From positions 1 through 40,851 of IMG/VR virus record IMGVR_UViG_3300020411_001151: a DNA stretch of 40,851 bases. One strand, given 5' to 3'. This stretch comes from a virus. Shown here piece after piece: positions 363 through 33,942 of this stretch (positions are counted from its first letter, which is position 1; every line of letters starts with the position of its first letter). The position numbers and the translations under genes are program-made. The notes under the pieces are model-generated. The model saw only the letters and a list, made by a program, of their open reading frames with translations. It searched no databases and was not told the origin of the DNA.

Positions 363-388
363 GTCCTAGTGACTATTGTCCTCCTGTT

Positions 389-396
389 TATTTATG
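389..396 (-). promoter_or_regulatory. T4-late-type promoter motif CATAAATA upstream of gp8
   Basis: Reading leftwards the sequence is CATAAATAAACAGGAGG, seven of eight bases of the T4 late consensus TATAAATA. It lies ~27 bases upstream of the gp8 ATG, in the gap after the preceding gene's stop codon. The same octamer precedes the 408-residue protein gene. The function is inferred from the motif and its position. Confidence 0.45.
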
Positions 397-397
397 C

Positions 398-4549: not shown

Positions 4550-4554
4550 TTATA

Positions 4555-5781: not shown

Positions 5782-5801
5782 TATTCGCTACAATTTTTAG
5801 T

Positions 5802-5809
5802 TATTTATG
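5802..5809 (-). promoter_or_regulatory. T4-late-type promoter motif CATAAATA upstream of the 408-residue protein
   Basis: The leftward sequence CCATAAATAACT overlaps the stop codon of the giant gene and lies ~20 bases upstream of the next ATG (5781). It matches seven of eight bases of TATAAATA and is identical to the octamer before gp8. It could give the genes downstream of the 25-kb gene their own late transcript. Confidence 0.45.
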
Positions 5810-8800: not shown

Positions 8801-11800
8801 CTACACTACCATATGTACTTGTAGCACCACTACTCTTACCTACAATAGTATCACTTGTAGTAGGAATATCTGTAGTTGTTGGTTTAATGTATAAGTGACT
8901 ATTAGATGCATCATATTCAAGAACTTCGGCAACACCAGAAGAATATGTAACTAATTCACCATCAGAATATATTCCAGAAGCACCAGTAATTGCAATCTTA
9001 TATGCACGAGTTGTGTTATCAACATTAGTTGTGATTATATCATGAATAATATCATCTGTTAATTCATTAACAAATGAATCATATGTCCATAATCCTGCAC
9101 CAAATTGAGAATTAACTATACTTCCAATCTCAGAAAGATAGTAATTCTTATTATACATTATATTCTTAGCAGCACTTCTTGCCTCATTCTTACCTGGAGC
9201 AAGCATATTAACTGCAATTTCAACAAGATCTCTTAATCTATAAACAACTGCATTAATATCTGTAGGAGTTTCTGAATCTCTATAAGAAGCTTCATCTGTA
9301 TGAATCGCAGCATATTGATCTCCAGTTACAGCAGTAAACTTATCATAAAGAAGATTTCTAACTGCCTTTTCACCATAAGTCTTAAGAAGTTCTATTGAAT
9401 AGATTGTAGGTAACAATTCATTTTCAACTTCATCAATTTGTAAACTAGCAGTTAGATATTTTTCAATTGCAGCAATTGTACTATTATTACCACCTGTTTG
9501 TAAATCAGATATGATACTTAAGATAATAAGTTTTAAATCTCTTTGACATGTAGTTTCTCCACTATCACCAGGATATTGGAATGCTGCATAATTGACTGTA
9601 TTAAGTTGATAAGTAAATTCTTGTGTTGTTAGATATGTAATTTCATCAGCAAGATATTTTCTATTAAAGTAAAGTCTATCTGCAGAAATATGGAAATCTT
9701 CACCAGTAGGAGCAATAATATCATTTGCAGTTGTTATTAAAGTATCAATTGCAGATTTAACATCAGCACATCCACCACCATCATTTGTAATACCCCAATC
9801 ACCTACAATAATATCATCAGTATTATCATTAGTTAAATCACCAGTTACTGCTTGTTTAGCATAGAATCCAATTCTGTCATGTGCATAAACAGACTGGAAT
9901 ACTTGTAAACGAATATGCTGTAATTCATCATTAGTACCGATATAGAAATTAGCAGCTTCTACCATATTAAGGTTTCCACCCTGTTCTATATCATTTGAAA
10001 TTGCATCAACAATTAAACCTATATCTTGCTTACAACGTAATGTTCCAGCACCAGTTCCATCAGCATTTCTAGGCATATCCAAAGCAAGATCTGGATATCT
10101 TTGAAGCATATCATATGATGCTTTATCAATGATTGGTCCACGATTAGCACGAATTAAATCAGCAGCATCACGGAATCTATATCTACCATCAACATCAACT
10201 TGATTTGTATGAATGATATCATTAGTTGCATCATGATAATCAACATTAAATGGAGTATCAGAATAAGAATTAACTGTACCACCAAGGAATTCATATGTAG
10301 GAGCAACTCTTGTAATTGTTCCTAGATGATCTACAGGACTTGCTAGATTTGCATTTTCTAATGTATCCGTTAGGATATCCATTAAGTTACCAGTTGTTGT
10401 ATAAACATCTGCACAATCAGCAGTTGTATACTTAGATTTTGTTATAGCATTTGAAGTTGCAGAACTAAATGTATGAGTATATTGATCATTTTCACCAGAT
10501 TTACCAACATTAACTGTTATAGTTGTAGTTGACGTATCTTTGACACGTAATATTTGATTATAAGAAGGATCTGTCTTACGAGGATATGAAGCAATTTCTT
10601 CATTTTGATCCTTATCACAAGTAAATTTAAGAGAATCAGGTGCTATATGAATAGAATCACCAGCAACTGTAATTGCATTAGTTGCAAAGGATACAAATGT
10701 ATGAGTGTAATTACCACCAGTACTGATTGCATTAGTTAAAGCAGATACAAATTTATGATCATATTGACCGCCACTCTGTATTACAGACCTTGTAATAGCG
10801 TAATCTAATGCAGATTTAAAGATATGTGCATAATCTCCACCAGTAGTAATAGCTGAAGGATCAGCACCTACAAAAGTATGAGTTGTAGTATTAGATGATA
10901 TACCAGCATTAACTGTAATTGTAGTTGGACTTACCCCTGTAATCTCAATTGAAGAATCATAATTTCTATCACGTTTTTGTTGAATACCATTTGTAGATCC
11001 TGCTTTAAATGTATGTGGATAATCACCACCAGTAATAACAGAATTAGCAAGAGCTGATGCATATGTATGACTATAACCACCACCAGATACTACAGCACCC
11101 GCAGCAGCAGATACAAATGTATGAGCATTTGTGTTAGTAATAGCACCTTGACCGCCGTTAACGTTAATTGTAATAGTACCAGCAGCATAATCAACTGCAG
11201 TAATATTCATTGCATTGTTGTACGCATAGTCAGCACCACTACCAGTAGCAGCACCCGTTGCACGAGGATATGTTCCTTGTCCAACAGTACCACCTTGATC
11301 ACAAGAGAATACAAATGATTGTGGCTTAAGTCTTACAGATGTACCAACTTTTAAGGTGTGGACACCAATAGTAATAACCATATCACCTGATGTTGGATCA
11401 TAGGTTGCATCAGTCGGTGTATGTTCTTTCAAAGGTGACTTACCAACATCTAAAGTAATAGTAGTTCCAGTTGTTGATGCAATTGCAAGAGAATTTTGAT
11501 ATGCTCTATCACGCTTCATCTTAACGCTATTTGCAAGAGCACTTACAAATGTATGAGTGTAATTACCACCAGAAATTACAGCACCAGCAGTTGCTGAAAC
11601 GAAATTATGTGCTGTAGTATCAGTAATAGCACCTTGACCACCATTAACATTGATTGTAATAGTAGTTGCAGTAGTTGCAGTAATTGCTATAGCAGTATCA
11701 TATGCATAGTCAGCACCATTATTTCCTGTCGTAGAAGCACCTGATGCACGAGGATATTTCTTCTCAGTTGTATTACCATCACTATTGAAATCACAAGTAA

Positions 11801-14800
11801 AGGTTAATGATTCAGTAGCAAGTTTAATACTATGATCTGTAGTTAAATTATGTGATCCAATAGTCAACTCCATATCACCCGATGTTGGGTTATAGGTAGC
11901 ATCAGTTACATCAAAATTAACAATAGGTGTAGCACCAACGGTAACGTCAAATGTATTTTCAGTTACATTGGAAACTTGTAGCCACTTACCTCTAGTTGGA
12001 TCATTAGTTCTAGGATATTGCTTATTGGATGAATTTCCATCCATTGAACAATTAAATGTAAATGCATTATCATCAAACTTAACCCAATCACCATTTCCAA
12101 ATCTATGCTGTGGAACTGTAACTGTTAATACTCCAGTTGTAGGAGCAAAGGAAGCGGTTGTTGGTGTATAGTTATCAATAGTGGATCTAGGATATGACTT
12201 AGTAGCAGTACCACCATCCATATCACAATTGAAACTAACTGCACCTTCTAAAAGTTGTACATTAGTTCCTTGTGCTAAAGTATGAGTTCCAATATCAAGT
12301 ACCATTAAACCTGTTGCTGGATCATAAGTTGCATCAGTTGGAGTAAATGCTACAGATGGAGACTTACCAACATTAACCTCAAAAGTTGTTGCAGTTACAT
12401 TTGATACTTGTAACCACTTACCAAAAGTAGGATCAGTTGTTCTAGGATAAGCATGATCTGTAGAATTTTCATCCATTTCACAAGTAAATGTGATAGCACC
12501 TTCGTTAAACTTAACCCAATCATTATTTTTAATACCATGAGAAGCAGCAGTAGTAATCTTAAGTACTCCGTCTAATGGATTGTAAGTTGTACCTGTAGTT
12601 GCAGTATGTGTATCAATTGTTGCACGAGGATATGAATGATTTGTGGCATTACCATCTTCAGCACAAGTAAATGTTAATGATTCTAATGCGATCTTAATAT
12701 GAGTACCTACTGTAAAGTCATGAGAACCAATTTCAAGTTCCATAGAACCTGTTGATGGGTTATAATCAGCACCAGTTGGAGTATAAGTCTTAATAGGTGA
12801 CTTACCTACATTAACATCAAAAGTATTTGTAGTTGAATTAGAAACTGTTAACCAATCACCAGAAATAGGATCAGTAATACGAGGATAAGAATGTTCAGAA
12901 TAATTATCATCCATTGCACATGTAAATGTCAATGAATTATCACGAATAAGAACTTTATCGTTATTCTTAATACCATGATTATTAGATGTAATAGTCATTA
13001 CACCTGTAGATGCATTATAAGAAACATCAGTAGGTTTATATTGATATGTACTCAATCCTTGGAATGTATGAGTAGATGTATTAGAAGCGGTATATCCATC
13101 TAAAGCATTAATTGTAATTGTAGTTGCACCAACTGCATCTACAGGAATTGATTGAGCTACTAATGGATCTCCTTCTGTAATTCCACGACTAACAGATTTA
13201 ACAAATGTGTGTATATCTGTATTTGTAGAAGGAACAGAATCTAAAACTTTAACATTAAAAGCATTATCAGTTACATTACTAATAAACAACCATCTATCAC
13301 TAACAGGATCAGTAGATCTTGGATATGTCTTATTTCTATCATCACCTGTTGCACCATTATGCCCACAACCAAATGTCAATGAATTATCAGCAATCTTAAT
13401 TGGAGTTCCAGGTCTCATTCCATGAGTACTGGTTATACAATTAACAGCATATGCTTTTCCAGTAACAAAGTTATGAGTTGTAGTATCAGTAATAGCACCC
13501 TGTCCACCATTTACATTGACTGTAATAGTAGTTCCAGTTACTGCCTTAATCATTAAAGGAGTATTATATGCAAAATCATTACCATTATCTCTAGGATATC
13601 TCTTCTCAGTCGTATTACCATCACCATTATAATCACAAGTGAATGTTAAGGACTCTTTAGCAATCTTAATTCTATCCCCAACAGAGAATCCATGACCAAG
13701 TATAACTGCACCAGCAGTTGCTGAGACGAATTGATGAGTAGAAATATCTGTAATAGCACCTTGTCCACCATTTACATTGACTGTAATAGTACCACCAGAT
13801 TGATCTACAGCAGTAATATCTAAGTAAGTATCAAATGCATAGTCAGCACCATTATTATTGGTTGTAGAAGCACCTGATGCTCTTGGATATTTCTTAATGG
13901 TTGTATTACCATCACCAAGATAGTTACAAGTGAACCATAATGATTCTTCTGCTAATTTTATTCTATCATTTGTAGTTAAAGTATGAGTACCTATATTAAG
14001 TACTAAATCACCTGATGTTGGATTATAAGTTGCACCACTAACATTTTTAGTACCAGAATTCAAGGCAATAGTCATTTCCATATCACCCGATGTTGGGCTA
14101 TATGTAATTGCAGTTGGGGTATGAGAACTAGGATTAACCCTTATGTTCATGATACCTGTAGCAGGATTGTATGTAGTACCAGGTCCAGCTGTATGTGTAG
14201 TTACTTCACTTCTAGGATAAGCATAATTTCCAGCACCTTCAGTACAACTAAAGAGTAGTGAATTTGGAGCAACTTTAACTGTTGAATTTGCTTTACTAAT
14301 AGCAGGGTTTGTAGCACCAACCCAAGTATGAGTATCTGTATTAGTTGAAGGAATTATATCCAATACTTGAACATCAAATGTATCGGTTGTTACATTTGAA
14401 ATAGGAATCCACTTATTGCTCACATAATCAGTAGTTCTTGGATAAGTTTTTGTTTGTCCACCAGTTACAGCACCAACATTAACTGTAATAGTACCACCAC
14501 CTTGATCTACAGCAGTAATAGCAATTGCAGTATTATATGCTGGATCTCCAGATCTAGGATAAGTATGACTAGTTGCATAATTATCTGCATCACATTGGAA
14601 TGATAATGTATTAGCACCAATAGTAACTGTATTTGATGTTGTGTAACTATGAGATCCAATAGTTAGTACCATAACTCCAGTAGAAGGAGTATAAACTGCG
14701 TTAGTTACATCTTTTTGACTAGCATCATTAAATGTAAGAGCATTAGAAGCTGTTCCACCATTATAAATGTGAACCCCTCCACCATAAGTACAACTAAATT

Positions 14801-20800: not shown

Positions 20801-23800
20801 TAATTTCAGAAGGTTTACCAACATCATCAACAAATTGTCCTGTAGTCTTAGTAATAGAACCAATTTCAAGCACACCTTTAGCAATCTTAAGATCACTAAT
20901 AATACCAGATGACTTAGAAATTACACCAGTAAGTCTTTGACCTGATACCCAACTTCCTGTATAATCTACAATCTTAATAATTCTAGGTCCAATTTGCCAA
21001 CCAGAGTTGGTAGAAACATATCCAGTTGCAGTTGCAACATCTAAAGAATCTCCTTGATAAACTAATTCACCTTCTAAGAAGGTAGAAGTAATAACATTTG
21101 CTTCTGCAGCAGCACCAAATGAAGATGTTAATAATTGCTGTCTTCCTTCACCAGCATTAACAAAAGTAAGACCATCTCCAAGTGCAGCATTAGCAGCAGT
21201 AATAGCAAGTTTTAATTGATCATCTTCTAATGAGTTAGCAGATCCAGTAATAGCATAATAAGTTGTAGTACCATTTAAACGACCAGTTGCTCCAGAAGAT
21301 AACGGGAAGTCAGCACCATCACCCGTATCAACTACATTAAGAGTAACTTCAGCACCATTTACAATACCATGTGGAAATGCGAATTGTAATAATCCCAAAT
21401 CAAGGTTTACAACATAATTGAATGAAGATTTAAGTTCAACCGTTGGTGTAGATGAATATCCAGCACCAGAATCCTTAACAAGAATATTATCAATACGACC
21501 ATTTTTAATTGTTGCTTCAGCAACTGCTCCAGAACCACCACCACCTGTAATAATAACAGCAGGTGCTTGTGAATATCCAGAACCTGGATTTGTAACTGTA
21601 ATACTATCAAGTATACTTGTAGAAGTTAATTGAGCATTAATTGGGAATGTAATCTCAGGACGTAAGGTATAGTCATGAGGATAATCATAACCAAAGTTAT
21701 TATTCTTAAGTTTTTTAATTTTACCAACCTTATCACCTTTAGTAAAGATAGATGCACCAGTACCAAATGGAGGAATAACAACAGTTAATTCTGCACCAGA
21801 ACCTGTTAAACCAGATCCAAGAATACCTTCAATTGAGTCTATATCAATAGATGCAGTAGTATATCCTTTACCTGGAGATGTAACAACAACTTCCTGAATT
21901 TGACCTGGAATTGTAACTCCTTCATCATCAGACCCATCAGCAACTGTAATACTAACTAAACCACCTTCACCATCTCCTCCAATAGGTACTTGGTTATATG
22001 TACCAACAGCATATTCAGTACCTGGATTAACAATCTGTACTCTTTCTATATTTCTTGTTGATAGAATACCAGTTACAATAGGTAATTTAGAATAAAATCC
22101 ACCAGGATTAACAATTCTAATATCATTAATCTTACCAACTGCAGCTTCTGAACTTGTACTATATGATGTCTGAGAAACAGATGCTGGACCTTCAGGTTCA
22201 TTTGCTAACTTAAATTTGAATACATCAGCACCTTTTGTAATAGTTGCTCCACTAATACTAGAAATTTGGAAAGTACCAACATAAGGAGAATTAACAATAT
22301 CAAGATAAGCACCACTAGAAATAGGAGAATCATCACCTAACCTAGAAGGATCGAAGTAATATGAAATATTAGTAACAATATCATTATCTACTTTTAACTT
22401 AACTGTTGGTGTTGGTTGACCTTCTCCAGTTACTCCAGGTGTTCCTATCCTTTCAATTGAGTTAAAAGAATATTCTAGTTTATAAAGATTATCTTTAGAA
22501 AATGAAAGGTTAGCTCCAACAAGAGATGAATGGCTTAAATCAAACAAATATTGATGACCATAGTACATCTGCAGTACAGGTGATTTCACGAAAACGCTTA
22601 CGTTCGCTGCGGTTGTGGCAGGACTTGTTATGGCTGCAGATGGTAATTTATATACAAATTCAAGGGAACTTATAACACGATCAACTGTAAATGACCCATC
22701 ATATTCATCATATACAGTACCACCAACAGTCTCTGATGGATTACCATCAACATATATCATTTCATTAGCAGATAAATAATGCCCTGTATTAGTAATTACA
22801 TAAACTTCATCGGTATTATTAACAGCAGTAACATTTAAAATCTTATCCAAATTACTGGTTAAACTAATTTTAAGAACACCAGATAAATTTGTAATTTGAG
22901 CAGTACTATACGCAGCGTTATATGATATATCACTAGCACTGATATCAACAACTGAACCTACAATAAAACTAGATCCACCAGCTACTTCTTCAATTTTAAT
23001 ACTATAATCTCTAGTATCAAAAGGTTTAAATTTAGCAAATCCATCAAGATTCTGTCCACCACCAGCATTATAAGTTCCATCTAAATTATATTTGTCTAAA
23101 TCAATATCAAATGTTCCAGGAGTGGTATTATCCACCATAGAGAACACATAATCTTTAATTACATTAGTATCATCAGGAATTGGTCCAACAATACCATAAG
23201 TATCTCCTTCATCAAATTGTGATGTAATTAATTCTCCTGTACTTAAATCATCACTCCAAGCATTATTATTAACAGCAACATAAACGTAATTATTAGTAGT
23301 ATCTACTTTAAGAATATAACCACTATTAATAAATGTGCCATTAGTTTGATTGAGTTGTAATTTAGCACCAACGGTAAAATCAAATGCTTGATTAATAGTT
23401 AATCTTTGAACATTATCAATTTTAACAGTATCAGTAACTTTAAAGTAATACTTATCCTTTACAACTGCAGAAACCTTAAGTTTTTGAGAACCTGGAGAAG
23501 GTACTGTAGAAGTTCTAGAACTCCAAAGATCACTAGTATAGGTAAGTGTCTCTGTATCTTGAGACATTGTTGTAGTGGCATCATCAAAATCTAAAGTCTG
23601 GAATCCTGCATCACCCAGTGTATAACCAGCACTTACCATAGTTAAAGATGATCCTATAACTGGAGTAACAGCAGTACGATTGAAACCTACTTGTGTATTA
23701 GTTTGTACTCCTTTATCACCAAGTCTATCAGAATCTGCATTTTTATCTACTTTTAAACCCCATCCTTCATAATCAATATAATCATACCTATTTGTATTAG

Positions 23801-26800
23801 TTGTAAACCAATCATCATCAGCCCAATCATTAGTAAGACCAAATGCACCAGCAAGAGGTAATACAGCAACATCAGTAGGAACTGTAGGTGTTACTGCTCT
23901 ATTTCTTAAACGTAAATTATCTAAATGGAATTGTCCTTGTTGACCAGACTGGAATTGACCTGTAGTACCACTCCATCCTGGTTGGTTACCAATATATAAA
24001 TCTTTACCACCTAAAGAAGTGTTTGCAAGAGTTCCATTTAAAACTGATATTCCATTTACATATACAGTAAATACATCACCTTCTCTCTTAATTCCAATAA
24101 ATTGCCATGTATTATCAGCATACATCGTTGTAACTGATGAAGTTAATGCACTACCAGCAGCATTAAGTGCTGTTGTGCTATTAGTTACAACTAAAGTTAA
24201 TGATCCGTTTCCTGGACTTGTTTGATCATAATACAACCACAAACCACCAGTTGCATCTGTAGCATCACCAATACCAACTAATGTTTCTGAATTTTGACCA
24301 TGTGTATTAGTAGCAGTACCATCTTTATACAACATGAACTCAAGAGTCCAGTCACTAGCAAGTCTAGTTCCTAGGGACGCAGCACTAAACTTAATTGCTG
24401 CATTTTCCCATGTTGCAGGGTTTACAGTATCTTTACCAAGTAACTTAGCAATACCATTAGAAGAATCTAGTTGTAAAGCATCACCCTCACCTAAGAAATC
24501 TGGGACATAGTGTCCTGTAGTATCAGTAGTTTCTCCAGTAGTAAACTCAAATAAGAATTCATTTCTATTCCATCCAGTCTGTCCAAAGACATATACATCA
24601 CCAGAATTATCAACATCTAGTGTATGTGCTTGAATTCCTTCAATATTATTTTTATTAAATTCATTGGTGGTATGATTCTTCATCAAACCATTATATCCAA
24701 GTTTTATAGTACCAACAGTTTGATAAGTAGTGGTTGCATTTACTCTAGTATAAGCAATATTAAGATCACCAAATATATCAATTACACCTTTATCAACAGC
24801 AGTAATACCTGTTCCAGGCATCAAATAACGATAATTCCAAATTAAATCTCCAGTAGTATCTACTTTTCCAACCCAAATACTATCTTGAGTAGTATCATCG
24901 GATTTAAGTTGACATGTAGCAGTTATATAAAACTCATTAAATTCATCAACACATAAACTACCATTTAAGAATGAATATAGAGTATTACTTAATTCTTTAA
25001 CATATTCAACTGTAATAGCACTTGTTCCAATCGTAGCCTTACCAAATGCCATATTAATGTCAGCAGCATTGGCAGATGTTGATACTTCCATGATAAAGTA
25101 AACATCATCACCCAAAACAACCATGTCAGTGATTCTTTCTGACTTATTAGCAGATGCTAATTTTCTCTTAATAGCAAAATTACCAGTAGTATCAATAGAT
25201 GCTATAAAAGCATCATGAGGATAAAGTGAGTTAGTATTAGTATAACCACCGATAATATAACGAGTATCAGAATATTTTCTAAGTGAAGTTACATAATCTG
25301 CACGAGTAGAACCAGAAATACCAGCATATCCTTTTTGGAAAGTTAAATTTGCACTTAATCCATCAGCAGCTTGAACATACTTAGCTAAAATAATATCTGG
25401 ATTATATGCATTTAATAATGCTGAATTTGGTCTATTTTGTCCAACAACCCATACATCATTACCATCAACAGCAATTTTATCAAATGAGGTATAATAAAGA
25501 CCAGCAGTACTCTCTAAAGTCCTTTCCCATTCTTTAATACCAAGAGAAGAATATTTTGCAACAAAACCAACACTATTTCCAGTAGCATCTTTAGTTTCAC
25601 CACAAATAAAGACTTCTTTATCAGAATTTACATAAGTATCATTTACCTTGACATAATTATTATTTTCAATCTTGGTTATGTAATAATCTGCTTTTTTATA
25701 AACTTGAGGATGACTTAATATAACACGAGGGTTTTTACTATACCCAGAACCAGAATTAACAATATTAACAGTATCAATAGATCCAACAGAAGTTACAATT
25801 GGTAGTAATTCTCCCTTAATACCATCACCATCAATTGTAATAGTAGGTGGAATTTCATCATCATATCCAGAACCTGTTTGATCTATTACAATTTGTTCAA
25901 TACCTTTAAATTGACGAACAGTGAAAGTTTTGTTCGTATCATCCATTATAGGAGTATAGTCGATATAGACTGTATCCTGAGGAGATATATTATGAGGAAT
26001 TGCTGTCTTTAATACACCATAATTAATACCACCAACGTTTTCAAAAGTGTAAGAAGTTACACTTTCACCAGTAATACGTGAAACTCTAGCAGATACACCA
26101 GTTCCATCAGTCTCTGCATTATCAAAGGTTAAAATATCATTAACCTGATAATTTTGACCTGGGTTTTCGATTGTAAATCCAGTTACAGAAGCATCTTCAA
26201 ATTTAGTTGTAGTTTCAACCTCAATATCAACTTTAGAATCAAATTTAACTTTAGGGAAATAATCAAAAAGTTGTAAAGGTGATTCCTCAAACATTTGATC
26301 TGGATCATTAGTCTCATCAGCACTTATGACACCATCTTTATTCTCATCCTCAATATCAAATAAGAGTATATCACCTGCCTCGGTTGTTAAAGCGTTTGTA
26401 GAAGCATTTGGTGCTCTTTCAACATCAATATCAACATTCTCGTAAGGATCTCTATAACGAACAACACCAGTAGGTATATTTTGCTGTACAGCAGTTTCAC
26501 TAAGATTCCAACTATCAACAACAGAATTAAAATCTGGACCTAAAACATATGGAAATACTGAATTACCAGATTCTGTACTATCAATAGTTACAAAATAACA
26601 ATATCTACCACCTGGATAATCAGGAGTCTTACAAAAACGACCATTATATTGATCTAAATCACCAAGACTAAAGATATACTCATAATCTTCAATAAAATTA
26701 CCAGCAGCTTCAGATGTAAGTAAAGGACCAGAAGTTCTAACTGGATATGGATTTGTTATTTCATCATAAACTAAATTTGATTTAAGTCTATATGAACTAT

Positions 26801-29800
26801 CTAATCTTGAAATAGGTGATGATTGATCGGTAGGATCTGTATATCCATAAGGTCCATAAATTGGGTTACCATCAAAAGCCCAACCAATAATAGGGGAATG
26901 TGCTAATTGATCTTCTTGCTCTAAAATAGCACCCTGAGCATTTTCAAATAAATTATCTCCAAGGATATATCTTAAAGTTTGAGGATTGGATAAGTGTGCA
27001 TATTCACCACCATATTGATTATTAAATCCTTCAAATACACCTCCTTTTGCATTATCAAACGTAGTAGATGACTGTAAATTATATCTCCATTGGAATACAG
27101 AAGGTGTAAATGTAGCACCAGAACCAACAGATGTTAAAGTAATTATTGTACTTCCTTGAACATAGTTAATACCTCTGTTTATAATTTCAATTCCTGTAAC
27201 TCTACCAGCATTTTCACCATCTACATCAATAGAAGCACGTGCTATAGCACCAAAACCAACACCTTGTATAGACACTGTAGGTGCTGTAGTATAACCTTGT
27301 CCAGCAGAAATAATAGCAATTGATATAATTCTTCCATTACTTACAATCGCTTGTGCAACAGCACCCTCACCAGAACTCAATGTAACAGTTGGATTTGATG
27401 TATATGAAGAACCACCAGCATCAACATTAACTTGTTTAATTGGACCACGAACAGATGCTGTAGCAGTTGCTCCTGTTCCATCACCTCCAACAATAGTAAT
27501 AGAAGGTTGAGAGGTATATCCTATACCTCCAGAGTTCATTAAAATACGAGATACAGAACCTTTTGTAATAATTGCAGTTGCAGCAGCACCAGAACCACCT
27601 CCACCTACAATAGAAACTAGAGGAGATGTTTTATATCCAGATCCACCATTAGTTACAGTAATTTCACTAATAGAACCATCAACAACTACAGATGCAGTTG
27701 CACCAGTACCTCCACCACCACTAACAGTAATTACAGGTGGTGATGCAGCATCATACCCAGATCCAGATGTAGTAGTAGCAATACTTGTAACAGGTCCAAA
27801 AGTCTTGGTAGTACTAGACTTATAAGACCATATAGAAACACCATTAACCCATGTTCCTATAGGACCAGGACTAATATTGTTTTTAGTTGAAATAGTTTGA
27901 GGTACTAGAGGAAATCTATTTAATTTACGTTGGTTCCCTGGAAGAAGTGCAGATCCAGGAAAAGGACCAATATTATAGTTTGGAATACCTGTAGAAGCAA
28001 CATAAACGTAATTATCATTAAAAAATGAGTTTTGTACGTTAGTTGTATAAGGTGCAACCGCATTTGAAACGGCATTATTAACGGATTTACCTTTATTAAG
28101 GTCAACAGATACTAAAATATTACCTTGTGGTACAACAGTTGCTGGTTGAGGTAATTGATATTGGAAAACAGTTTCACTATCTCTAGATGTAACTAAAAAT
28201 GTTCCATTATAGATGATTGGATTAGCACCATAAACAGTAACCTGATCACCAACAAGTAAACCATGATTATTTGAACATGTTATAGTAGCATATCTATTAT
28301 CAATACCACCAAAACTAACATTAGTAACTTCAATTAATTTTTTAACGTTATATAACCATGTTTTAAGTTCTGGTTTATCTGCAGTTCCACCTAACTTAGA
28401 AACTGTTAATTTATCACCAGGTAAGTAATATGATCCTGTATCTGTAAGATTGGTTTGTTGAGCATCAACAATACCAACAACATTCATAACAACTTCTTGA
28501 TCTGTTCCTTTGTTAATATAAACATTAAAGTTAGAAGCAACTTCTGATGCAGAATCCCAATCCTCTACAACACCATTAACTGAACGAGTACACTCAATAA
28601 ACTGATTTAATGACTTTTCTTTATATTGAACAACTTCTACACTATCAGTAGAACTACCAATTACAAATTCTCCATTTCTTTCTGGCCAACCAATAGTAGA
28701 ATCAACTGTAATAACACTATCCTCTGGTCCTAATGGTTCTGCAAGTTTTGTTTTATAAGGAACAGTAAAGATACCATTAATAGTTTCTTCTGAAAGTATT
28801 AATTCAAATATTTCTACTTGAGAAGTCTTAATTGAAATATAATTTTCTACAAGAGCACTAGCAGTTTTAATATTAGTATCAGCAATATCTTCTTCTTGTG
28901 TTAAAAGACCATCTTTAATATCAGTTGGATTTCCACTAACTAATGTTGCACGTAAAATAGTATCAATAGACCAACTAGCATCAGATGGTTTAATAATCTG
29001 ATCTTTTGGATAAGTAACACTTACTTGTTCACCATATAAGAGTTTAAACAAATAAGCAACACTAAATGATGTACCTTTTGTGCTATAAAACTGCTTTACA
29101 GTCTTAATTGCAGTTCTAACATCAATTTTATTAAAATCTAATGCAGGAACATCAGGAAGATATTGTTCTGTATACTTATCAAGTAATCTTTTAACAAATA
29201 AAGCATCTAGACATTTAATTTCTGTATCAATTGCTGCTGCAGCTGCAGTTGTATCATTAGAAAATATAGCATTACCACTTTCTGTATATTCGGTAATACC
29301 ACTAGCTGCTCTTGCACATCCTTCAAATTTTGCCTTACTATATCCAGATCCACTCTGATTAATAGTAAAACCAGTAACTTCATTTACACCAATTTCAACA
29401 GATGTTTTTGCTTCAGGTGGACTTTGAATAACAATTTCTGGAGGATTATCTGCACTATATCCAGTACCAAAATTAACAATATTAATATCAGTAATTTTAC
29501 CATTAAAAATTGCTGCATTAGCACTTGCTCCAGTACCACCAATGTAAGTACCAACACCATCTACTCTATTGTCAACAATATAAACAGATGGAATATCATC
29601 ATACCCACTTCCACCATCAAGAAGTTCAACAGATGTTACTCTACCATCTCCATCAACTTTTGTTTGTAAAACTTGTGCTCCAACAGGGTCAATTACTGCA
29701 ATTCTTGGAGTAGTTTCATATCCTTGTCCAGCATTTAATACATTAATACTGGTAATCTTACCGTCAGTTAAAACTGCTTCAAATGCTGCTCTAATTGGAT

Positions 29801-31181
29801 TATCACCAGTTGGTTCATCAATATAAATTGTAGGAACTGTTGTATAATCAGAACCACCATCAGTAATAGTAATTCCACCAGAAATACTACCATTAGAGAT
29901 GGTTGGAGCTCCTAATTTTGCCCCTCCAGGTTGTTTAAATGTAACTCTAGGGGTAAAAGTATATCCACTACCAGAATTAATTATTTCAACATCACTAATA
30001 GACCCATTAGTTACTGTCGCTTTTAATGTAGCAATCTTAGATCCTTCTTTCGTAGGTGCTTGTATTTCAACACGAGGAGGATTTGTATCACTATATCCTT
30101 TACCACCATCAAGTAAAAGAGCACTCTTAATACCATTTACAAGTGCTGTTGCAGAAGCACCTACACCATCAATAGAATTAATAGAAACTTTTGGTGGATA
30201 TTCAAATTGATATGAACTACCAGTTATACTTGTTTTGATGTCAGTAAGTTTTCCATCATCACTTATACGAGCATATCCAACTGCACCAGATCCAAAAGAA
30301 GGAATTGGTGCTTCTATAGAGAATACTGAAAGGAATCTACCATTAAGAGGTGCTTCTTTAAAGATAAATTGATTACCATCAATAAAAAAGTCTACTTTAG
30401 GTATTAATAACTTATTATCATATACAGCAAGAACATATTCATCTACTAGAGGTTCAAATGAAATACCAGCTCTAGTAAGAGTAAACGCTGTTTTACCATC
30501 ACCAAAAGAGTTTGAAATATTATCTGTATCAACAATAGTATTCTCAACAAATCCACTTAAATACTGGATATAAGTAGATGCTGAATCATCTGCAGGAATT
30601 TTAACTCTAGGTGCAACTGTATAAACAATATTAGTACCACTAATAGTATAATCTATACCTGGAACTAATACTTCACCATATACACTTACAATGATATGTT
30701 GTGCTGATGGTGGTCCAATAGGAGCAGATTGAGAAGTTAATGGGAAAATTTTAGTAGTTCCATCAAAATCATTGATATGACTAGCTAAATTAGTCCATTT
30801 TAACCTTACTTGTTCATAAGATATACCTGGACTTAATGCAATATTAGGTGCAGCAGTTGTTTTTTCATAATATATTACTTCATCACCAATTAATATTGAA
30901 CCATTTTTTTCTAAAAATGAGTTAACACTCTCTACAACAATACTCTCACTTGCTGCAGTTATCGGTTCTACTACTTTAGTTGCTCCATCTAAAATACCAA
31001 TATCTAACTTATCAATATCAAGATATTGAAGAAAATTATTAATTATATTTTGTCCTAATCCCGTCTTTTCTTGAGATTTATAGTAATATTCAATAAATTT
31101 ATTGAATAAAGGATAGTCAGACTGGATAAAATCTGGTGACTGACTACGTATAGACTGAGAGACCTTATTTATATTTGCCAT
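5805..31181 (-). CDS. giant modular virion protein at the gene 7 locus (8,458 aa)
   Basis: One open frame with no internal stop, starting four bases after gp6 ends. Layout by approximate residue: 1-50 helical start (SDYPLFNKFIEYYYKSQEK); 150-300 beta modules; 290-625 GSGY repeats; 670-730 helical FYSTKGTSFSVAYLFKLLYG; 1130-1330 GSGY repeats; 1425-1555 YHYH; 1850-2200 propeller-like repeats; 2255-2430 LamG; 3020-3250 GSGY repeats; 3463-3510 YYYQDFSY...VHPASFKVFGE; 4070-4235 LamG; 4340-4420 helical module; 4440-6915 about 23 cysteine/YPR repeats; 7000-7380 two more helical modules; 7495-7705 carbohydrate-binding-like module; 8150-8310 two NG..Q.PG modules; GSGY end. I recall the SDYPLF, FYSTKGT and VHPA...FGE segments recurring in marine T4-like structural proteins; this was not searched. 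The place between gp6 and gp8 is that of T4 gp7 (~1,030 aa). A gp7-like wedge role plus host-contacting adhesin extension is inference. Confidence 0.8.
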   Translation of the reverse strand: MANINKVSQSIRSQSPDFIQSDYPLFNKFIEYYYKSQEKTGLGQNIINNFLQYLDIDKLDIGILDGATKVVEPITAASESIVVESVNSFLEKNGSILIGDEVIYYEKTTAAPNIALSPGISYEQVRLKWTNLASHINDFDGTTKIFPLTSQSAPIGPPSAQHIIVSVYGEVLVPGIDYTISGTNIVYTVAPRVKIPADDSASTYIQYLSGFVENTIVDTDNISNSFGDGKTAFTLTRAGISFEPLVDEYVLAVYDNKLLIPKVDFFIDGNQFIFKEAPLNGRFLSVFSIEAPIPSFGSGAVGYARISDDGKLTDIKTSITGSSYQFEYPPKVSINSIDGVGASATALVNGIKSALLLDGGKGYSDTNPPRVEIQAPTKEGSKIATLKATVTNGSISDVEIINSGSGYTFTPRVTFKQPGGAKLGAPTISNGSISGGITITDGGSDYTTVPTIYIDEPTGDNPIRAAFEAVLTDGKITSINVLNAGQGYETTPRIAVIDPVGAQVLQTKVDGDGRVTSVELLDGGSGYDDIPSVYIVDNRVDGVGTYIGGTGASANAAIFNGKITDINIVNFGTGYSADNPPEIVIQSPPEAKTSVEIGVNEVTGFTINQSGSGYSKAKFEGCARAASGITEYTESGNAIFSNDTTAAAAAIDTEIKCLDALFVKRLLDKYTEQYLPDVPALDFNKIDVRTAIKTVKQFYSTKGTSFSVAYLFKLLYGEQVSVTYPKDQIIKPSDASWSIDTILRATLVSGNPTDIKDGLLTQEEDIADTNIKTASALVENYISIKTSQVEIFELILSEETINGIFTVPYKTKLAEPLGPEDSVITVDSTIGWPERNGEFVIGSSTDSVEVVQYKEKSLNQFIECTRSVNGVVEDWDSASEVASNFNVYINKGTDQEVVMNVVGIVDAQQTNLTDTGSYYLPGDKLTVSKLGGTADKPELKTWLYNVKKLIEVTNVSFGGIDNRYATITCSNNHGLLVGDQVTVYGANPIIYNGTFLVTSRDSETVFQYQLPQPATVVPQGNILVSVDLNKGKSVNNAVSNAVAPYTTNVQNSFFNDNYVYVASTGIPNYNIGPFPGSALLPGNQRKLNRFPLVPQTISTKNNISPGPIGTWVNGVSIWSYKSSTTKTFGPVTSIATTTSGSGYDAASPPVITVSGGGGTGATASVVVDGSISEITVTNGGSGYKTSPLVSIVGGGGSGAAATAIITKGSVSRILMNSGGIGYTSQPSITIVGGDGTGATATASVRGPIKQVNVDAGGSSYTSNPTVTLSSGEGAVAQAIVSNGRIISIAIISAGQGYTTAPTVSIQGVGFGAIARASIDVDGENAGRVTGIEIINRGINYVQGSTIITLTSVGSGATFTPSVFQWRYNLQSSTTFDNAKGGVFEGFNNQYGGEYAHLSNPQTLRYILGDNLFENAQGAILEQEDQLAHSPIIGWAFDGNPIYGPYGYTDPTDQSSPISRLDSSYRLKSNLVYDEITNPYPVRTSGPLLTSEAAGNFIEDYEYIFSLGDLDQYNGRFCKTPDYPGGRYCYFVTIDSTESGNSVFPYVLGPDFNSVVDSWNLSETAVQQNIPTGVVRYRDPYENVDIDVERAPNASTNALTTEAGDILLFDIEDENKDGVISADETNDPDQMFEESPLQLFDYFPKVKFDSKVDIEVETTTKFEDASVTGFTIENPGQNYQVNDILTFDNAETDGTGVSARVSRITGESVTSYTFENVGGINYGVLKTAIPHNISPQDTVYIDYTPIMDDTNKTFTVRQFKGIEQIVIDQTGSGYDDEIPPTITIDGDGIKGELLPIVTSVGSIDTVNIVNSGSGYSKNPRVILSHPQVYKKADYYITKIENNNYVKVNDTYVNSDKEVFICGETKDATGNSVGFVAKYSSLGIKEWERTLESTAGLYYTSFDKIAVDGNDVWVVGQNRPNSALLNAYNPDIILAKYVQAADGLSANLTFQKGYAGISGSTRADYVTSLRKYSDTRYIIGGYTNTNSLYPHDAFIASIDTTGNFAIKRKLASANKSERITDMVVLGDDVYFIMEVSTSANAADINMAFGKATIGTSAITVEYVKELSNTLYSFLNGSLCVDEFNEFYITATCQLKSDDTTQDSIWVGKVDTTGDLIWNYRYLMPGTGITAVDKGVIDIFGDLNIAYTRVNATTTYQTVGTIKLGYNGLMKNHTTNEFNKNNIEGIQAHTLDVDNSGDVYVFGQTGWNRNEFLFEFTTGETTDTTGHYVPDFLGEGDALQLDSSNGIAKLLGKDTVNPATWENAAIKFSAASLGTRLASDWTLEFMLYKDGTATNTHGQNSETLVGIGDATDATGGLWLYYDQTSPGNGSLTLVVTNSTTALNAAGSALTSSVTTMYADNTWQFIGIKREGDVFTVYVNGISVLNGTLANTSLGGKDLYIGNQPGWSGTTGQFQSGQQGQFHLDNLRLRNRAVTPTVPTDVAVLPLAGAFGLTNDWADDDWFTTNTNRYDYIDYEGWGLKVDKNADSDRLGDKGVQTNTQVGFNRTAVTPVIGSSLTMVSAGYTLGDAGFQTLDFDDATTTMSQDTETLTYTSDLWSSRTSTVPSPGSQKLKVSAVVKDKYYFKVTDTVKIDNVQRLTINQAFDFTVGAKLQLNQTNGTFINSGYILKVDTTNNYVYVAVNNNAWSDDLSTGELITSQFDEGDTYGIVGPIPDDTNVIKDYVFSMVDNTTPGTFDIDLDKYNLDGTYNAGGGQNLDGFAKFKPFDTRDYSIKIEEVAGGSSFIVGSVVDISASDISYNAAYSTAQITNLSGVLKISLTSNLDKILNVTAVNNTDEVYVITNTGHYLSANEMIYVDGNPSETVGGTVYDEYDGSFTVDRVISSLEFVYKLPSAAITSPATTAANVSVFVKSPVLQMYYGHQYLFDLSHSSLVGANLSFSKDNLYKLEYSFNSIERIGTPGVTGEGQPTPTVKLKVDNDIVTNISYYFDPSRLGDDSPISSGAYLDIVNSPYVGTFQISSISGATITKGADVFKFKLANEPEGPASVSQTSYSTSSEAAVGKINDIRIVNPGGFYSKLPIVTGILSTRNIERVQIVNPGTEYAVGTYNQVPIGGDGEGGLVSITVADGSDDEGVTIPGQIQEVVVTSPGKGYTTASIDIDSIEGILGSGLTGSGAELTVVIPPFGTGASIFTKGDKVGKIKKLKNNNFGYDYPHDYTLRPEITFPINAQLTSTSILDSITVTNPGSGYSQAPAVIITGGGGSGAVAEATIKNGRIDNILVKDSGAGYSSTPTVELKSSFNYVVNLDLGLLQFAFPHGIVNGAEVTLNVVDTGDGADFPLSSGATGRLNGTTTYYAITGSANSLEDDQLKLAITAANAALGDGLTFVNAGEGRQQLLTSSFGAAAEANVITSTFLEGELVYQGDSLDVATATGYVSTNSGWQIGPRIIKIVDYTGSWVSGQRLTGVISKSSGIISDLKIAKGVLEIGSITKTTGQFVDDVGKPSEIIQKIQDSYYYQDFSYAVKSAVSIGEWKEILLKNVHPASFKVFGELNLNEYGLIPNKETDFQLTKSVELARQATVPNIQNFALVEPIYSEFNNTEVLFRQKRLTSSENILTSVVQRVDDISNLFDGERISFPLTVEGNTVVANANQLMIVLNGVVQTPNTAFQIQQDSIVFSDPPQPPASVKYVNVSVSQINTVQLTFTNISGIFPTTGQVLVGTASGARLTVTKVVGNDIFGYITQGEFVIASPNGELCTVSATGFSANIVSQTAVENIGLFTFGETVTNLTGDIAKVEQVNLERGSETPLADLRYTIGASTTSFEVIDPTATNDAPVAAGTFEATKKYQFGSEIFLVNSITDNTNSTTLSVTRAQDGTAAVAQQEDTPIYGTQILVTNDLTLSKTTGTYQSTPGLYDIQLNDVIIGAASGVVASITATSAYQDPVTNEFIDQVNISEGSSFFGLLFNRITSQSYPNIVLDDISKSQVSIVQYTDNETAFNTEFPSNEQINNYIIPYDNASGALTEGEDIRNYKIEYGNNSGEFTAGEAGNVRKLTFTEKIGSGFFSSGQVIRTRDTKAEIIGYNQARNTVYVGKIGRTQATGQDYHTATFANSAQLDTDQKKFGDSSLLLAAGTSDYINIPSTAELAFAAGAFTIELWVRPATSSLSGTATLVDCRASGATEVAGRLYLEAGQVRWNVNGSDLVNSGATTLTADTWTHICVQRSSTTTKILKDGAEVGTGTDNSTYIAKPVRIGADYAGSNGFSGHIDEFRLSNNNRYSSVPFTPRNGIFQGDVNTKMLFHFEGADAQTWDDDWSGGESFTAGEYFNNDAILATTRANSGTVPGGFASKSQRYINASILIELNKDFIANESVYIMKQVFPSFTVIGGEVNCEDDVRDILDSVIADLRSGSNSSIWDAAAFYVDRTQNPIALRQIENEIPQSLFVINKVEEMVKYIINNDLWDVQGDHGLVQKTDTTITESDYATLTQFTPTTATYSASSGDLVLTVGSGHGVVAETQITATDASYNPTTGALTLEVTGHNLPAGTKVKIKENSLVMNCTSDGNTVNQSYPRPDDPAAQGWLEISNIQTNEFDVNVGKSPTVNFTPTAGTYDGQTGWLKMTIGDHDLRTGSKYTAKNASYVAATGVLTLTIDTDSFDVTDASYNAQNGDLTLNVGPHSLNKGQKIRVEANSLSFSCGMDSNATTKTYPRSTDPIYNTSTEITDVSAETITINVGKSPIVNFNVSTATYSPTSGDLVLTIGASHGLTTGQSIKLKDNSLTFTCDFNGDGNTTEKTYPRPGSTFTAIEGTEYVSSTGIMKVKTNTNHGLSNGDKVKINDGSLKFSCTYAQGGEQDYPRINDPISGQYIAVSNVTADTFEIDVLQGTTPTNLSPHTFVSAVSNGIVLESKDYAYNTALEITAADQAAGTITVNVNGGQGAITDTTTHNFTTADPGAVISGGDYPHKFITASSDAIVVDHGLFVGDRVLIAEDSLKFTCDMDSNASQHTYPRKSDPSFNKWLPITNITTTTFDVNVGATTASTFTPTAVTYDPATGDMELTIGSHTLKQGTTVKIADNSLTFTCAMDSNGSNHTYPRSTDPVSNTSIPIIATTDTTIKVNVGTTPVVNHNVTNATYNPTSGDMVLTIGVNHGLSNGTSIKIATESLWFTCDYNSDGNTSIKKYPRATGSAAAGGADYAYNTAVSITAVDQAAGTITVNVNGGQGAITDTTAHNWVDRTAFNAIQSGGNYAHTFVTGQGAATNCITAGGAYNHTFISSTPNGITRSGETIKMLKDGITFSCDQDSYETDHSYPRGDDPFYNTSLPIYNDGINYTATGASYNPLSGEMVITIVEHGFTTSDSIRIENNSLTFTCSRDSNDSVHTYPRTYDPYSGRWLRITAVTTDTFTVNVGASPSTEQYTHTFVSALPDGIVKRDNSVTVNVGAIPTKSYAPTAATYNASTGAMQLTIGSHSLPAPTTHNVTNGAYNPTTGIMTLTVAGHGFSNGEKIKINDNALQFSCTYGGGVHIYNGGTASNALTFNDASQKDVTNAVYTPSTGVMVLTIGSHSYTTSNTVTIGANTLSFQCDADNYATSHTYPRSGDPAYNTAIAITAVDQGGGTITVNVGAVTGGQTKTYPRTTDYVSNKWIPISNVTTDTFDVQVLDIIPSTNTDTHTWVGATNPAISKANSTVKVAPNSLLFSCTEGAGNYAYPRSEVTTHTAGPGTTYNPATGIMNIRVNPSSHTPTAITYSPTSGDMEMTIALNSGTKNVSGATYNPTSGDLVLNIGTHTLTTNDRIKLAEESLWFTCNYLGDGNTTIKKYPRASGASTTNNNGADYAFDTYLDITAVDQSGGTITVNVNGGQGAITDISTHQFVSATAGAVILGHGFSVGDRIKIAKESLTFTCDYNGDGNTTEKRYPRDNGNDFAYNTPLMIKAVTGTTITVNVNGGQGAITDTTTHNFVTGKAYAVNCITSTHGMRPGTPIKIADNSLTFGCGHNGATGDDRNKTYPRSTDPVSDRWLFISNVTDNAFNVKVLDSVPSTNTDIHTFVKSVSRGITEGDPLVAQSIPVDAVGATTITINALDGYTASNTSTHTFQGLSTYQYKPTDVSYNASTGVMTITSNNHGIKNNDKVLIRDNSLTFTCAMDDNYSEHSYPRITDPISGDWLTVSNSTTNTFDVNVGKSPIKTYTPTGADYNPSTGSMELEIGSHDFTVGTHIKIALESLTFTCAEDGNATNHSYPRATIDTHTATTGTTYNPLDGVLKITTAASHGIKNNDWVKFNEGAITFTCEMDENSTDHAYPRTTDPTFGKWLQVSNVTATTFEVNVGKSPSVAFTPTDATYDPATGLMVLDIGTHTLAQGTNVQLLEGAVSFNCDMDGGTATKSYPRSTIDNYTPTTASFAPTTGVLTVTVPQHRFGNGDWVKFDDNAFTFNCSMDGNSSNKQYPRTNDPTRGKWLQVSNVTENTFDVTVGATPIVNFDVTDATYNPTSGDMELTIGSHNLTTDHSIKLATESLTFTCDFNSDGNTTEKKYPRASGASTTGNNGADYAYDTAIAITATTATTITINVNGGQGAITDTTAHNFVSATAGAVISGGNYTHTFVSALANSVKMKRDRAYQNSLAIASTTGTTITLDVGKSPLKEHTPTDATYDPTSGDMVITIGVHTLKVGTSVRLKPQSFVFSCDQGGTVGQGTYPRATGAATGSGADYAYNNAMNITAVDYAAGTITINVNGGQGAITNTNAHTFVSAAAGAVVSGGGYSHTYASALANSVITGGDYPHTFKAGSTNGIQQKRDRNYDSSIEITGVSPTTITVNAGISSNTTTHTFVGADPSAITTGGDYAHIFKSALDYAITRSVIQSGGQYDHKFVSALTNAISTGGNYTHTFVSFATNAITVAGDSIHIAPDSLKFTCDKDQNEEIASYPRKTDPSYNQILRVKDTSTTTITVNVGKSGENDQYTHTFSSATSNAITKSKYTTADCADVYTTTGNLMDILTDTLENANLASPVDHLGTITRVAPTYEFLGGTVNSYSDTPFNVDYHDATNDIIHTNQVDVDGRYRFRDAADLIRANRGPIIDKASYDMLQRYPDLALDMPRNADGTGAGTLRCKQDIGLIVDAISNDIEQGGNLNMVEAANFYIGTNDELQHIRLQVFQSVYAHDRIGFYAKQAVTGDLTNDNTDDIIVGDWGITNDGGGCADVKSAIDTLITTANDIIAPTGEDFHISADRLYFNRKYLADEITYLTTQEFTYQLNTVNYAAFQYPGDSGETTCQRDLKLIILSIISDLQTGGNNSTIAAIEKYLTASLQIDEVENELLPTIYSIELLKTYGEKAVRNLLYDKFTAVTGDQYAAIHTDEASYRDSETPTDINAVVYRLRDLVEIAVNMLAPGKNEARSAAKNIMYNKNYYLSEIGSIVNSQFGAGLWTYDSFVNELTDDIIHDIITTNVDNTTRAYKIAITGASGIYSDGELVTYSSGVAEVLEYDASNSHLYIKPTTTDIPTTSDTIVGKSSGATSTYGSVVSVYDVYQKPTNVKIINTARQITSNIQGQISGDNLYTGSEDFGTTWTNELSTVTTDDTNNAPPDFDRSSKYTADKVESNTTPGEHGIHRTYALNAYDTFDDGVIKFDDATNYFDEGAIGIQEDQQYTFSVFVKAGTETQAQVGIILDDGTAGIQEAFFNINLSTGTFASIFQPQNGIVVDGYGVVPYGDGWYRGYVTCTFSFGFSNLKTRIALNNSASYNTATNLYVWGAKLNKGALDPYTAVSGKLFYSDTEYNIKQYAIDLLAGYIKQAITGTLTSPSTNTSFYAYYDSVASTDYDEKTIREFVNGSLDIIRKQLDVDTYYTGIAINNAITIPSKLYGTRSIPIGIQGGLNSTDFIYGTQSDAFAELETISLNQGKIVKIFQRFRIDGDITDGPFTMNETVSKQGAPSITGKVYAYYADDNYKYLDVEVTAGPWAITDVVVGGENSTTAQISSIEDRIQIIDLRGTFTDNIPFKGYNSGNTAQPTGFLNNQAAVLDNTGGTLTVDTETLTGTFETTSVVYPESSRQYIEVSQYTGLNVGVGNRIASNGYIRLGVTIISGLNVFAVGNRLYKVVNGAQDTNTYGIITEVDLDNNYLYITEFQGTFTNGDLVGDYGTGGGFPVGYASISTKVTTAGAAAALVQDIRDVGVNKRLYLSDIKGTFTTRDSVSGPEGYKAVVLSKQDLFGRVKRSFKGFDGTTTTFPLSHTNGTSYFPDPEGHLLVFINGILQPPGATNAYTAFSNQIQFTEAPELGASFTGFYVGKLRQLDDISFEFDSLRQSFNLKRNDIFYSLTLTEGVQSSTILPENNIIVSLNGVIQEPGVGFEIVGSRIIFSEIPRVGSTFVAFSYVGSEADVDAAEVVPPIEPGDFIDIQGETEDREVAVIESSNSLITFDYLGSVFGQDAIGQAVITNGFIQTVQVTAGGSGYNSRPTVRLDSISGFDGQIRALVGVAGVEMSAAGSGYQNPNVAVETSVPDDWTAPDLSLYGQELVDPEILP
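6250..6735 (-). repeat. two C-terminal NG..Q.PG beta modules of the giant protein
   Basis: Two adjacent modules of ~75 residues share the pattern (F/L)..T......(L/I)(L/I)V.(I/L)NG(I/V)(L/I)Q.PG.....I.F.E.P..G..F.(G/A)F. The cores are HLLVFINGILQPPG and NIIVSLNGVIQEPG. Related single modules occur near residue 3600 (QLMIVLNGVVQTP) and, more divergently, at residues 160-300. Such modules are common in tail-fibre proteins. Confidence 0.6.
8070..8705 (-). other. carbohydrate-binding-like beta-sandwich module in the giant protein
   Basis: Residues ~7495-7705 contain, in order, NLYTGSEDFGTTW, KYTADKVES, YTFSVFVKAG, NINLSTGTFAS, GDGWYRGYVTCTF and LYVWGAKLNKGALDPY. This order (NL...SE.F...W; TADK; FSV..KAG; LSTG; GWYR; VWGA.L..G) is a common module in phage tail proteins that is usually interpreted as a carbohydrate-binding sandwich. 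The assignment is by pattern recall only, without a profile search. Confidence 0.55.
9360..10055 (-). repeat. helical module, second and third copies (giant protein ~7040-7270)
   Basis: Two copies start with CKQDIGLIVDAISNDIEQGG and CQRDLKLIILSIISDLQTGG, each followed by an N..(M/I).A...(F/Y) segment and a long helix. A first copy (CEDDVRDILDSVIADLRSGS) lies at 17930-18165, on the other side of the cysteine-repeat array. Pattern: Cys-x2-Asp-(Ile/Leu/Val), heptad-like hydrophobics, Asp-(Ile/Leu)-x3-Gly. No function is assigned. Confidence 0.65.
10440..17870 (-). repeat. array of ~23 cysteine/YPR repeats in the giant protein
   Basis: Residues ~4440-6915. The usual unit runs: Y(N/D)P(T/A)(S/T)G.(M/L).(L/I)T(I/V)..H.L, then (I/V)KI...SL.F(T/S)C, then an Asp/Asn/Gly loop such as CDYNGDGNTTEKRYPR or CAMDSNGSNHTYPR, then I..V....(F/I).VNVG. 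I counted 23 F-x-Cys positions, all but one followed by a YPR-type end. Inserted among the units are GG.Y.H.F.SA...AI elements and six copies of NGGQGAITD. The array is in frame throughout. The units vary in sequence, so most duplications are old, but some subunits are nearly identical. No function is known to me; an elongated beta-rich shaft is a guess. Confidence 0.75.
17930..18165 (-). repeat. helical module, first copy (giant protein ~4340-4420)
   Basis: Begins CEDDVRDILDSVIADLRSGS and continues through AAAFYVDRTQ to EEMVKYIINNDLWD. It aligns by eye with the two modules at 9360-10055 and sits immediately before the cysteine/YPR array, so the array is bracketed by copies of the same helical module. 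Confidence 0.6.
18480..18965 (-). other. LamG / concanavalin-like domain 2 (giant protein ~4070-4235)
   Basis: Shows the usual LamG order: DYINIPSTAELAF, then FTIELWVRP, a LVDCR strand, WTHICVQRSSTTTKILKDG, VRIGADYAGSNGFSGHIDEF and RLSNNNRYSS. This is a jelly-roll sandwich that usually binds glycans or calcium at its rim. In a tail protein it suggests surface recognition, which is inference. Confidence 0.75.
21430..22130 (-). repeat. GSGY beta repeats, third cluster in the giant protein
   Basis: Residues ~3020-3250. Units of ~30 residues follow (I/V)..V.(V/I)..PG.GY...P.V.I.GGGG.GA.A.A.(I/V).(N/D)G.I, e.g. ITVTNPGSGYSQAPAVIITG and ILVKDSGAGYSSTPTVEL. The same unit occurs at 27190-27780, at 29300-30300, and in the 1,383- and 835-residue proteins. 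Confidence 0.7.
23890..24410 (-). other. LamG / concanavalin-like domain 1 (giant protein ~2255-2430)
   Basis: Contains AAIKFSAAS, SDWTLEFMLYKDG, a GGLWLYYDQ strand, NTWQFIGIKREGDVFTVYVNG-type strands, DLYIGNQPGWSG and FHLDNLRLRNRAV. The strand order and the closing (H/L)DNLR(L/I) are typical of LamG_3-type domains. It directly follows the propeller-like repeats. Confidence 0.7.
24590..25630 (-). other. beta-propeller-like repeats in the giant protein (~1850-2200)
   Basis: Several ~50-60-residue units alternate a strand of the type (V/I)(W/F)(V/I)(C/V)G.T.. with a strand such as GFVAKYSSLGIKEWER, DAFIASIDTTGNFAIKRK or SIWVGKVDTTGDLIWNYR, ending in DVYVFGQTGW. This is the pattern of SBBP/PQQ-like propeller blades (G...D.(F/W)(V/I).K.D..G...W). 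A bladed propeller followed by a LamG domain inside a phage tail protein suggests a ligand-binding head. Confidence 0.6.
26525..26910 (-). other. YHYH domain of the giant protein (~1425-1555)
   Basis: Contains IIGWAFDGNPIYGPYGY and, ~70 residues on, DLDQYNGRFCKTPDYPGGRYC ending in FPYVLGPDF. It matches both halves of the YHYH domain in the 1,383-residue protein but without that protein's ~125-residue insert. The YHYH family is widespread in environmental proteins; its role in virions is unknown to me. Confidence 0.65.
27190..27780 (-). repeat. GSGY beta repeats, second cluster in the giant protein
   Basis: At least six units at residues ~1130-1330, including SEITVTNGGSGYKTSPLVSI, RILMNSGGIGYTSQPSITIV and KQVNVDAGGSSYTSNPTVTL. 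Spacing is ~30 residues, with GGGG.GA linkers between units. This is the most regular GSGY tract in the window. Confidence 0.75.
29300..30300 (-). repeat. GSGY beta repeats, first cluster in the giant protein
   Basis: Residues ~290-625 carry around ten units, e.g. SDVEIINSGSGYTFTPRVTF, ITITDGGSDYTTVPTIYID and VTSVELLDGGSGYDDIPSVY. Most have a (G/A)xA(Y/T)A linker strand. The tract lies between the N-terminal beta modules and the helical FYSTKGT segment. Confidence 0.75.
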
Positions 31182-33915: not shown

Positions 33916-33942
33916 CACATTTACATAATACCTAGTTATTAT

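Follow-up and report, generated by a model that had tools for sequence, protein, structure and literature searches.

Judged by homology, the giant gene of this marine bacterial virus encodes the baseplate wedge protein gp7, the core of which is split by two insertions, one of about 590 residues and the other of about 2,550, and is extended by about 4,950 residues. The product belongs, as a long form, to a giant gp7 family known from ocean cyanobacterial viruses. It is likely to be a wedge protein of a T4-like phage of the Kyanoviridae type, in which the scaffold and a host-contact array are combined in one polypeptide chain; the scaffold role is based on homology, and the host-contact role is suggested by the domains of the protein and by missing genes. 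The window, i.e. the whole stretch of DNA analysed here, is an entire IMG/VR record of 40,851 bases and is therefore only a fragment of a genome.

The reading frame and its neighbours

The giant frame starts with ATG and encodes 8,458 residues, about 904 kDa (Table 1). At the base composition of the window, a run of 8,458 open codons would occur by chance with a probability of about e^-667. The gene directly follows gp6, whose stop codon ends at 31186, leaving a spacer of 4 bases, and it is close to gp25 and gp8. Two genes separate the giant gene from gp8. The first-pass annotation had described the frame as uninterrupted, with gp6 four bases upstream and gp8 two genes downstream, and was correct in all of this. 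The order gp25, gp6, giant gene, gp9, 399, gp8 is identical in the window, in Prochlorococcus phage P-SSM4 and in Synechococcus phage S-SM1. Beyond gp6 and gp25, the upstream side also contains a PAAR protein and a phrog_719 wedge protein.

Table 1. Positions of the giant gene, its parts and its neighbours in the window
Feature	Residues	Position	Strand	Evidence or remark
gp25		33213..33632	-	PF04965 8.8e-14
gp6 wedge protein		31186..33213	-	PF21379 1.3e-17, phrog_219
Giant gp7 frame	1-8458	5805..31181	-	
gp7 core piece A, helical	1-75	30957..31181	-	hhalign 97.4% to compact gp7 family; PF23786 positions 5-54
Insertion 1, GSGY-type beta repeats	76-662	29196..30956	-	missing from compact relatives; shared with other baseplate proteins
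gp7 core piece B	663-806	28764..29195	-	hhalign 99.3% to compact family; PF23786 177-221; phrog_964 731-757
Insertion 2, contains YHYH domain	807-3355	21117..28763	-	
YHYH domain	1365-1535	26577..27089	-	PF14240 E 4.6e-32
gp7 core piece C	3356-3510	20652..21116	-	hhalign 98.4% to compact family; PF23786 235-280
C-terminal extension	3511-8458	5808..20651	-	
LamG / concanavalin-A-like lectin domain	4084-4226	18504..18932	-	PF13385 E 9.6e-22
Array of about 23 diverged ~83-residue all-beta repeats	4439-6895	10497..17867	-	AF2 pLDDT 84.6, all strands
Conserved C-terminal block	8000-8458	5808..7184	-	70-83% identity in all giants compared
gp9/gp10-N-type connector		4555..5781	-	PF07880 4.6e-10, phrog_677
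phrog_708 wedge protein with YHYH		398..4549	-	T4-GC 399 type by position
gp8, cut by contig end		3..362	-	phrog_438

Several neighbours have features of their own. A SET-domain protein of 94 residues (33634-33918, minus strand; PF00856 E 6.2e-9; phrog_28741) is encoded between the PAAR gene and gp25, an odd location for a lysine methyltransferase-type domain within a baseplate operon. The last ~110 residues of the gp9-like connector appear cupredoxin-like (HPFRIQS...YYQCTIHAAMQGTINV), as judged by eye only. In the phrog_708 wedge protein there is another YHYH domain, together with GSGY repeats, matching parts of giant gp7, and YHYH/GSGY modules are thus shared among adjacent baseplate genes.

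A frame of this size could be an assembly chimera, or several genes joined in error, as the first-pass annotation had itself allowed, and the window is a metagenomic contig. Among 40 records containing relatives of residues 608-927, many nevertheless have a single unbroken frame of 6,158 to 9,131 residues; among the shorter ones are contigs truncated at one end. Independent metagenomic frames of 8,359, 8,384, 8,391 and 8,394 residues are close in length to that of the window, the last being situated in a 179-kb contig, and the same single frame is found in cultured isolates. Since independent contigs bear unbroken frames of similar or greater size, the giant frame is not considered a chimera. 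Purifying selection acts along the entire frame: in the comparison with the nearest full-length relative (G001), dN/dS is 0.13-0.35 in every segment, and it is lowest in the three core pieces A, B and C (0.153, 0.156 and 0.128, respectively), piece C having the minimum for the whole protein. Tandem Repeats Finder reported no array across the region of the ~83-residue repeats, and read collapse or false joins are unlikely there because the repeats are strongly diverged at the DNA level. The probability of an artefactual frame is accordingly taken to be minute. Apart from a 14-base duplicate at 20308, the one notable tandem repeat in the DNA of the giant gene is a 29-base unit present in 2.2 copies at 28779-28840.

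The gp7 core and its relation to T4 gp7

A phmmer search with residues 1-950 against the PDB sequences gave no match, and T4 gp7 was therefore approached via compact gp7-like relatives of 400-900 residues, gathered from viral contigs, which were used as a bridge. Compact wedge proteins of this kind (400-1,000 residues; phrog_26741, phrog_17744, PF23786; an example is Ochrobactrum phage OC p050, 631 residues) have counterparts of all three core pieces in the same order, but they lack the kilobase-scale insertions, the repeat array and the long extension. With giant segments 1-106, 663-806 and 3356-3510 as hhalign queries, the matches are collinear on the compact family. PF23786, a phage baseplate wedge family of 284 positions, matches the three collinear pieces of the giant and no other protein, both in the window and in the five relatives examined. 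The phrog_964 profile (T4 gp7) has one match per genome in five relatives, and this match is always inside the giant gene.

The compact family aligns with residues 645-892 of T4 gp7 over about 240 columns (profile comparison, 97.8%, E 7e-13), and the reversed and column-shuffled controls of this comparison reached at most 0.2%. A T4-type fragment, L200_6, was excluded from the compact set for this calculation; with it, the E-value is 8e-33. When the PDB sequences were searched with a compact profile devoid of any T4 row, T4-type gp7 gave the only meaningful matches (E 2e-6 and 5e-6). The AF2 model of a 400-residue compact relative found gp7 as the top three chains in Foldseek (E 2e-7, 2.5e-6 and 6e-4; the next at 0.07); given the low overall confidence of the model and a TM-score of only 0.18 to gp7, this match is a local one. 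On a T4-like phage contig (L200:4461-6098), the C-terminal half of gp7 forms a separate frame of 546 residues, representing a split or frameshifted gp7.

Piece A corresponds to T4 gp7 from about residue 645. Piece B, which contains FYSTKGTSFSVAYLFKLLYG at residues 698-717 (29031-29090), alone matches T4 gp7 731-760 directly (hhalign, 94%); when the compact bridge is bypassed, pieces A and C give no significant profile match to T4 gp7. Piece C carries VHPASFKVFGE at residues 3494-3504 (20670-20702). T4 gp7 (1,032 residues; PDB 5IV5, 5HX2) thus shares with the giant the homologous core 645-892 and the slot after gp6. In T4 this core forms one continuous stretch, whereas in the giant it is divided. 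The giant has no counterpart of T4 residues 1-640, the alignment beginning at T4 residue 645, or of the last T4 domain (gp7 domain VI). The N-terminal domains of T4 gp7 are not taken as family-defining, because they are also absent from the compact homologues.

The first-pass annotation had proposed a gp7-like core grown by insertion and by a C-terminal extension of ~4,950 residues, on the strength of the motifs SDYPLF, FYSTKGT and VHPASF, which begin at residues 21, 698 and 3494. The three collinear pieces, traced via the compact proteins to T4 645-892, agree with this proposal, and in both the profile and the structure searches through compact relatives T4-type gp7 is the best match. A separate gp7 homologue, which that annotation saw as the counter-evidence to look for, was not found elsewhere in five relatives with genome-sized records (174-179 kb), the window itself being a 40.8-kb fragment. 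Three points had been overlooked: giant gp7 is normal in Kyanoviridae, longer members exist, and the first 640 residues of T4 gp7 are unrepresented.

Gp7 has been stated to be absent from cyanomyophages and pelagimyophages and to be apparently replaced there by VrlC (PMC7029224). The giant would then be a fibre or an adhesin merely occupying the gp7 slot, the function of gp7 having passed to VrlC. The conservation of VrlC in all these phages (PMC7029224) and the match of just 27 residues given by the T4 gp7 profile by itself agree with such a takeover. On the other hand, three collinear pieces of the giant match PF23786 and the compact gp7s, which align with T4 gp7, and phrog_964 has no match in the VrlC of the relatives. 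Sinorhizobium phage phiN3 carries a 1,006-residue gp7 homologue (phrog_964 E 8.6e-7) side by side with VrlC, and VrlC is therefore not a gp7 substitute. P-SSM4 and S-SM1 each have giant gp7 and VrlC, so that in none of these three phages does the presence of VrlC go with the absence of gp7. We consider the transfer of gp7 function to VrlC very improbable. The three-piece homology, a result obtained at the level of sequence, contradicts the published absence of gp7 in such phages (PMC7029224).

The giant family and its repeats

A profile of virion structural proteins, phrog_701 (6,136 positions), spans the window protein end to end, the repeat array of the window being longer than that of the profile. 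The baseplate wedge family phrog_2885 matches a large part of the giant, and phrog_4406 is also among the matching families. With this end-to-end homology and the conserved N- and C-terminal blocks, the protein belongs to the giant cyanophage gp7s of the P-SSM4 type. The P-SSM4 protein (PSSM4_080, AAX46881) is annotated as gp7, 'baseplate wedge initiator', and, with 7,312 residues, has been called the largest bacterial virus protein (PMC8553790). It is orthologous over the full length, with the same gene order and the same repeats, but is 1,146 residues shorter than the window protein. The S-SM1 orthologue, SSM1_102 (T4-GC969), has 6,180 residues and was detected in purified virions (PMC3037559). 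Because of the P-SSM4 annotation and publication and the S-SM1 virion detection, the giant family is regarded as already known, and the protein as a component of the virion in at least one relative. The window protein is longer than those cultured members for which a length was obtained, but is surpassed by metagenomic ones; a claim to record size was rejected, since a relative of 9,131 residues exists (G021, IMGVR_UViG_3300020472_000035, 16-44 kb).

The length of giant gp7 tracks the copy number of the ~83-residue all-beta repeat, the hallmarks of which are ...YPR...NVG. There are 2 YPR repeats in S-SM1 and 11 in P-SSM4, against 23 in the window, and 29 in the 9,131-residue protein. Over 13 full-length giants, the length equals 6,363 residues plus 90 for each YPR repeat (r = 0.97, Spearman 0.99); as the 13 proteins are mutually related and share descent, they are not independent points and the correlation describes rather than proves. 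In the relatives checked, the repeats are almost confined to the giant gene, with one copy in a 999-residue frame just downstream of it in one relative (G025). Foldseek with the AF2 repeat model gave nothing significant and no PDB match. Weak Pfam matches to CBM_X2, Inhibitor_I24, E1_FCCH and DUF4183 were under their cut-offs and were discarded. GC skew is near zero across much of 10001-18000, the stretch of the repeat array, compared with about -0.13 in the remaining giant gene, probably because the repeats are rich in Thr. Neither the repeat-length rule nor the three-piece gp7 core was found described in the non-subscription literature searched.

Wedge scaffold and proposed host contact

T4 has six copies of gp7, each a monomer, and its wedge (gp11, gp10, gp7, gp8, gp6, gp53, gp25) is put together in a strict order, to which gp11 is the exception (PMC3004832). 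The (gp6)2-gp7 packing, in six copies per tail, is known for T4 and for phage XM1 (PMC3004832, PMC10457771). In the XM1 orthologue of gp7, a protein of only 242 residues, helices at the N-terminus form part of the core bundle together with two chains of the gp6 type, and the tail spikes are held by a loop and by the C-terminal tail (PMC10457771). By analogy, the giant seems enlarged at the sort of site that carries the spikes in XM1, namely between the core pieces and at the C-terminus. The three short pieces of chain would fold together as the gp7 core and, if the contacts are those of T4 and XM1, pack against the gp6 dimer, so helping to build each of the six wedges.

The regions that are short in the compact relatives hold the beta-rich modules predicted from sequence: the GSGY repeats, YHYH, LamG and about 23 of the 83-residue repeats. 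These modules probably form a peripheral plate or a fibre that reaches and binds the host, although the predicted YHYH and LamG domains are no proof of adhesion. The relatives checked have no gp11, no full gp10 and one gp9/10-N gene as compared to two in T4. Host-contact modules may thus be carried on the scaffold's own chain instead of on separate proteins of the gp10, gp11 and gp12 type. Differences in length among phages would arise chiefly as copies of the 83-residue repeat are gained or lost. We tentatively suggest, as an idea somewhat short of probable, that fusion in cis has joined the whole periphery of the wedge (gp10, gp11 and gp12 in T4) to the gp7 core, and that evolution can set the reach of a host-contact arm through the number of 83-residue repeats.

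The insertions and repeats of a gp7-type scaffold might instead be purely architectural, serving as a ruler, a spacer or a plate stabiliser, with the host recognized by other fibres encoded downstream of VrlC. The host recognition cluster has been placed between VrlC and gp14 (PMC7029224), and the N- and C-terminal blocks of the giant are strongly conserved among phages of different hosts, unlike a fast-changing receptor binder. Against a purely architectural part speak the YHYH and LamG domains, and the fact that the repeat number and the LamG region (35-73% identity) are the features that vary most between relatives. An architectural role deserves serious attention, while falling below an even chance. 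A combined scaffold and host-contact array remains the preferred reading.

The sequence settles which protein occupies the gp7 slot in abundant ocean cyanophages, a point on which the annotation of P-SSM4 (gp7) and the published account (absent; PMC7029224) disagreed. A wedge core of roughly 250 residues can stay conserved though split by kilobase-scale insertions, and the repeat copy number provides a simple size rule for the largest known phage proteins. This marine bacterial virus devotes 25 kb to one protein of the tail baseplate. If it is present in six copies, as T4 gp7 is, at about 0.9 MDa each, the giant would be a major share of the baseplate mass.
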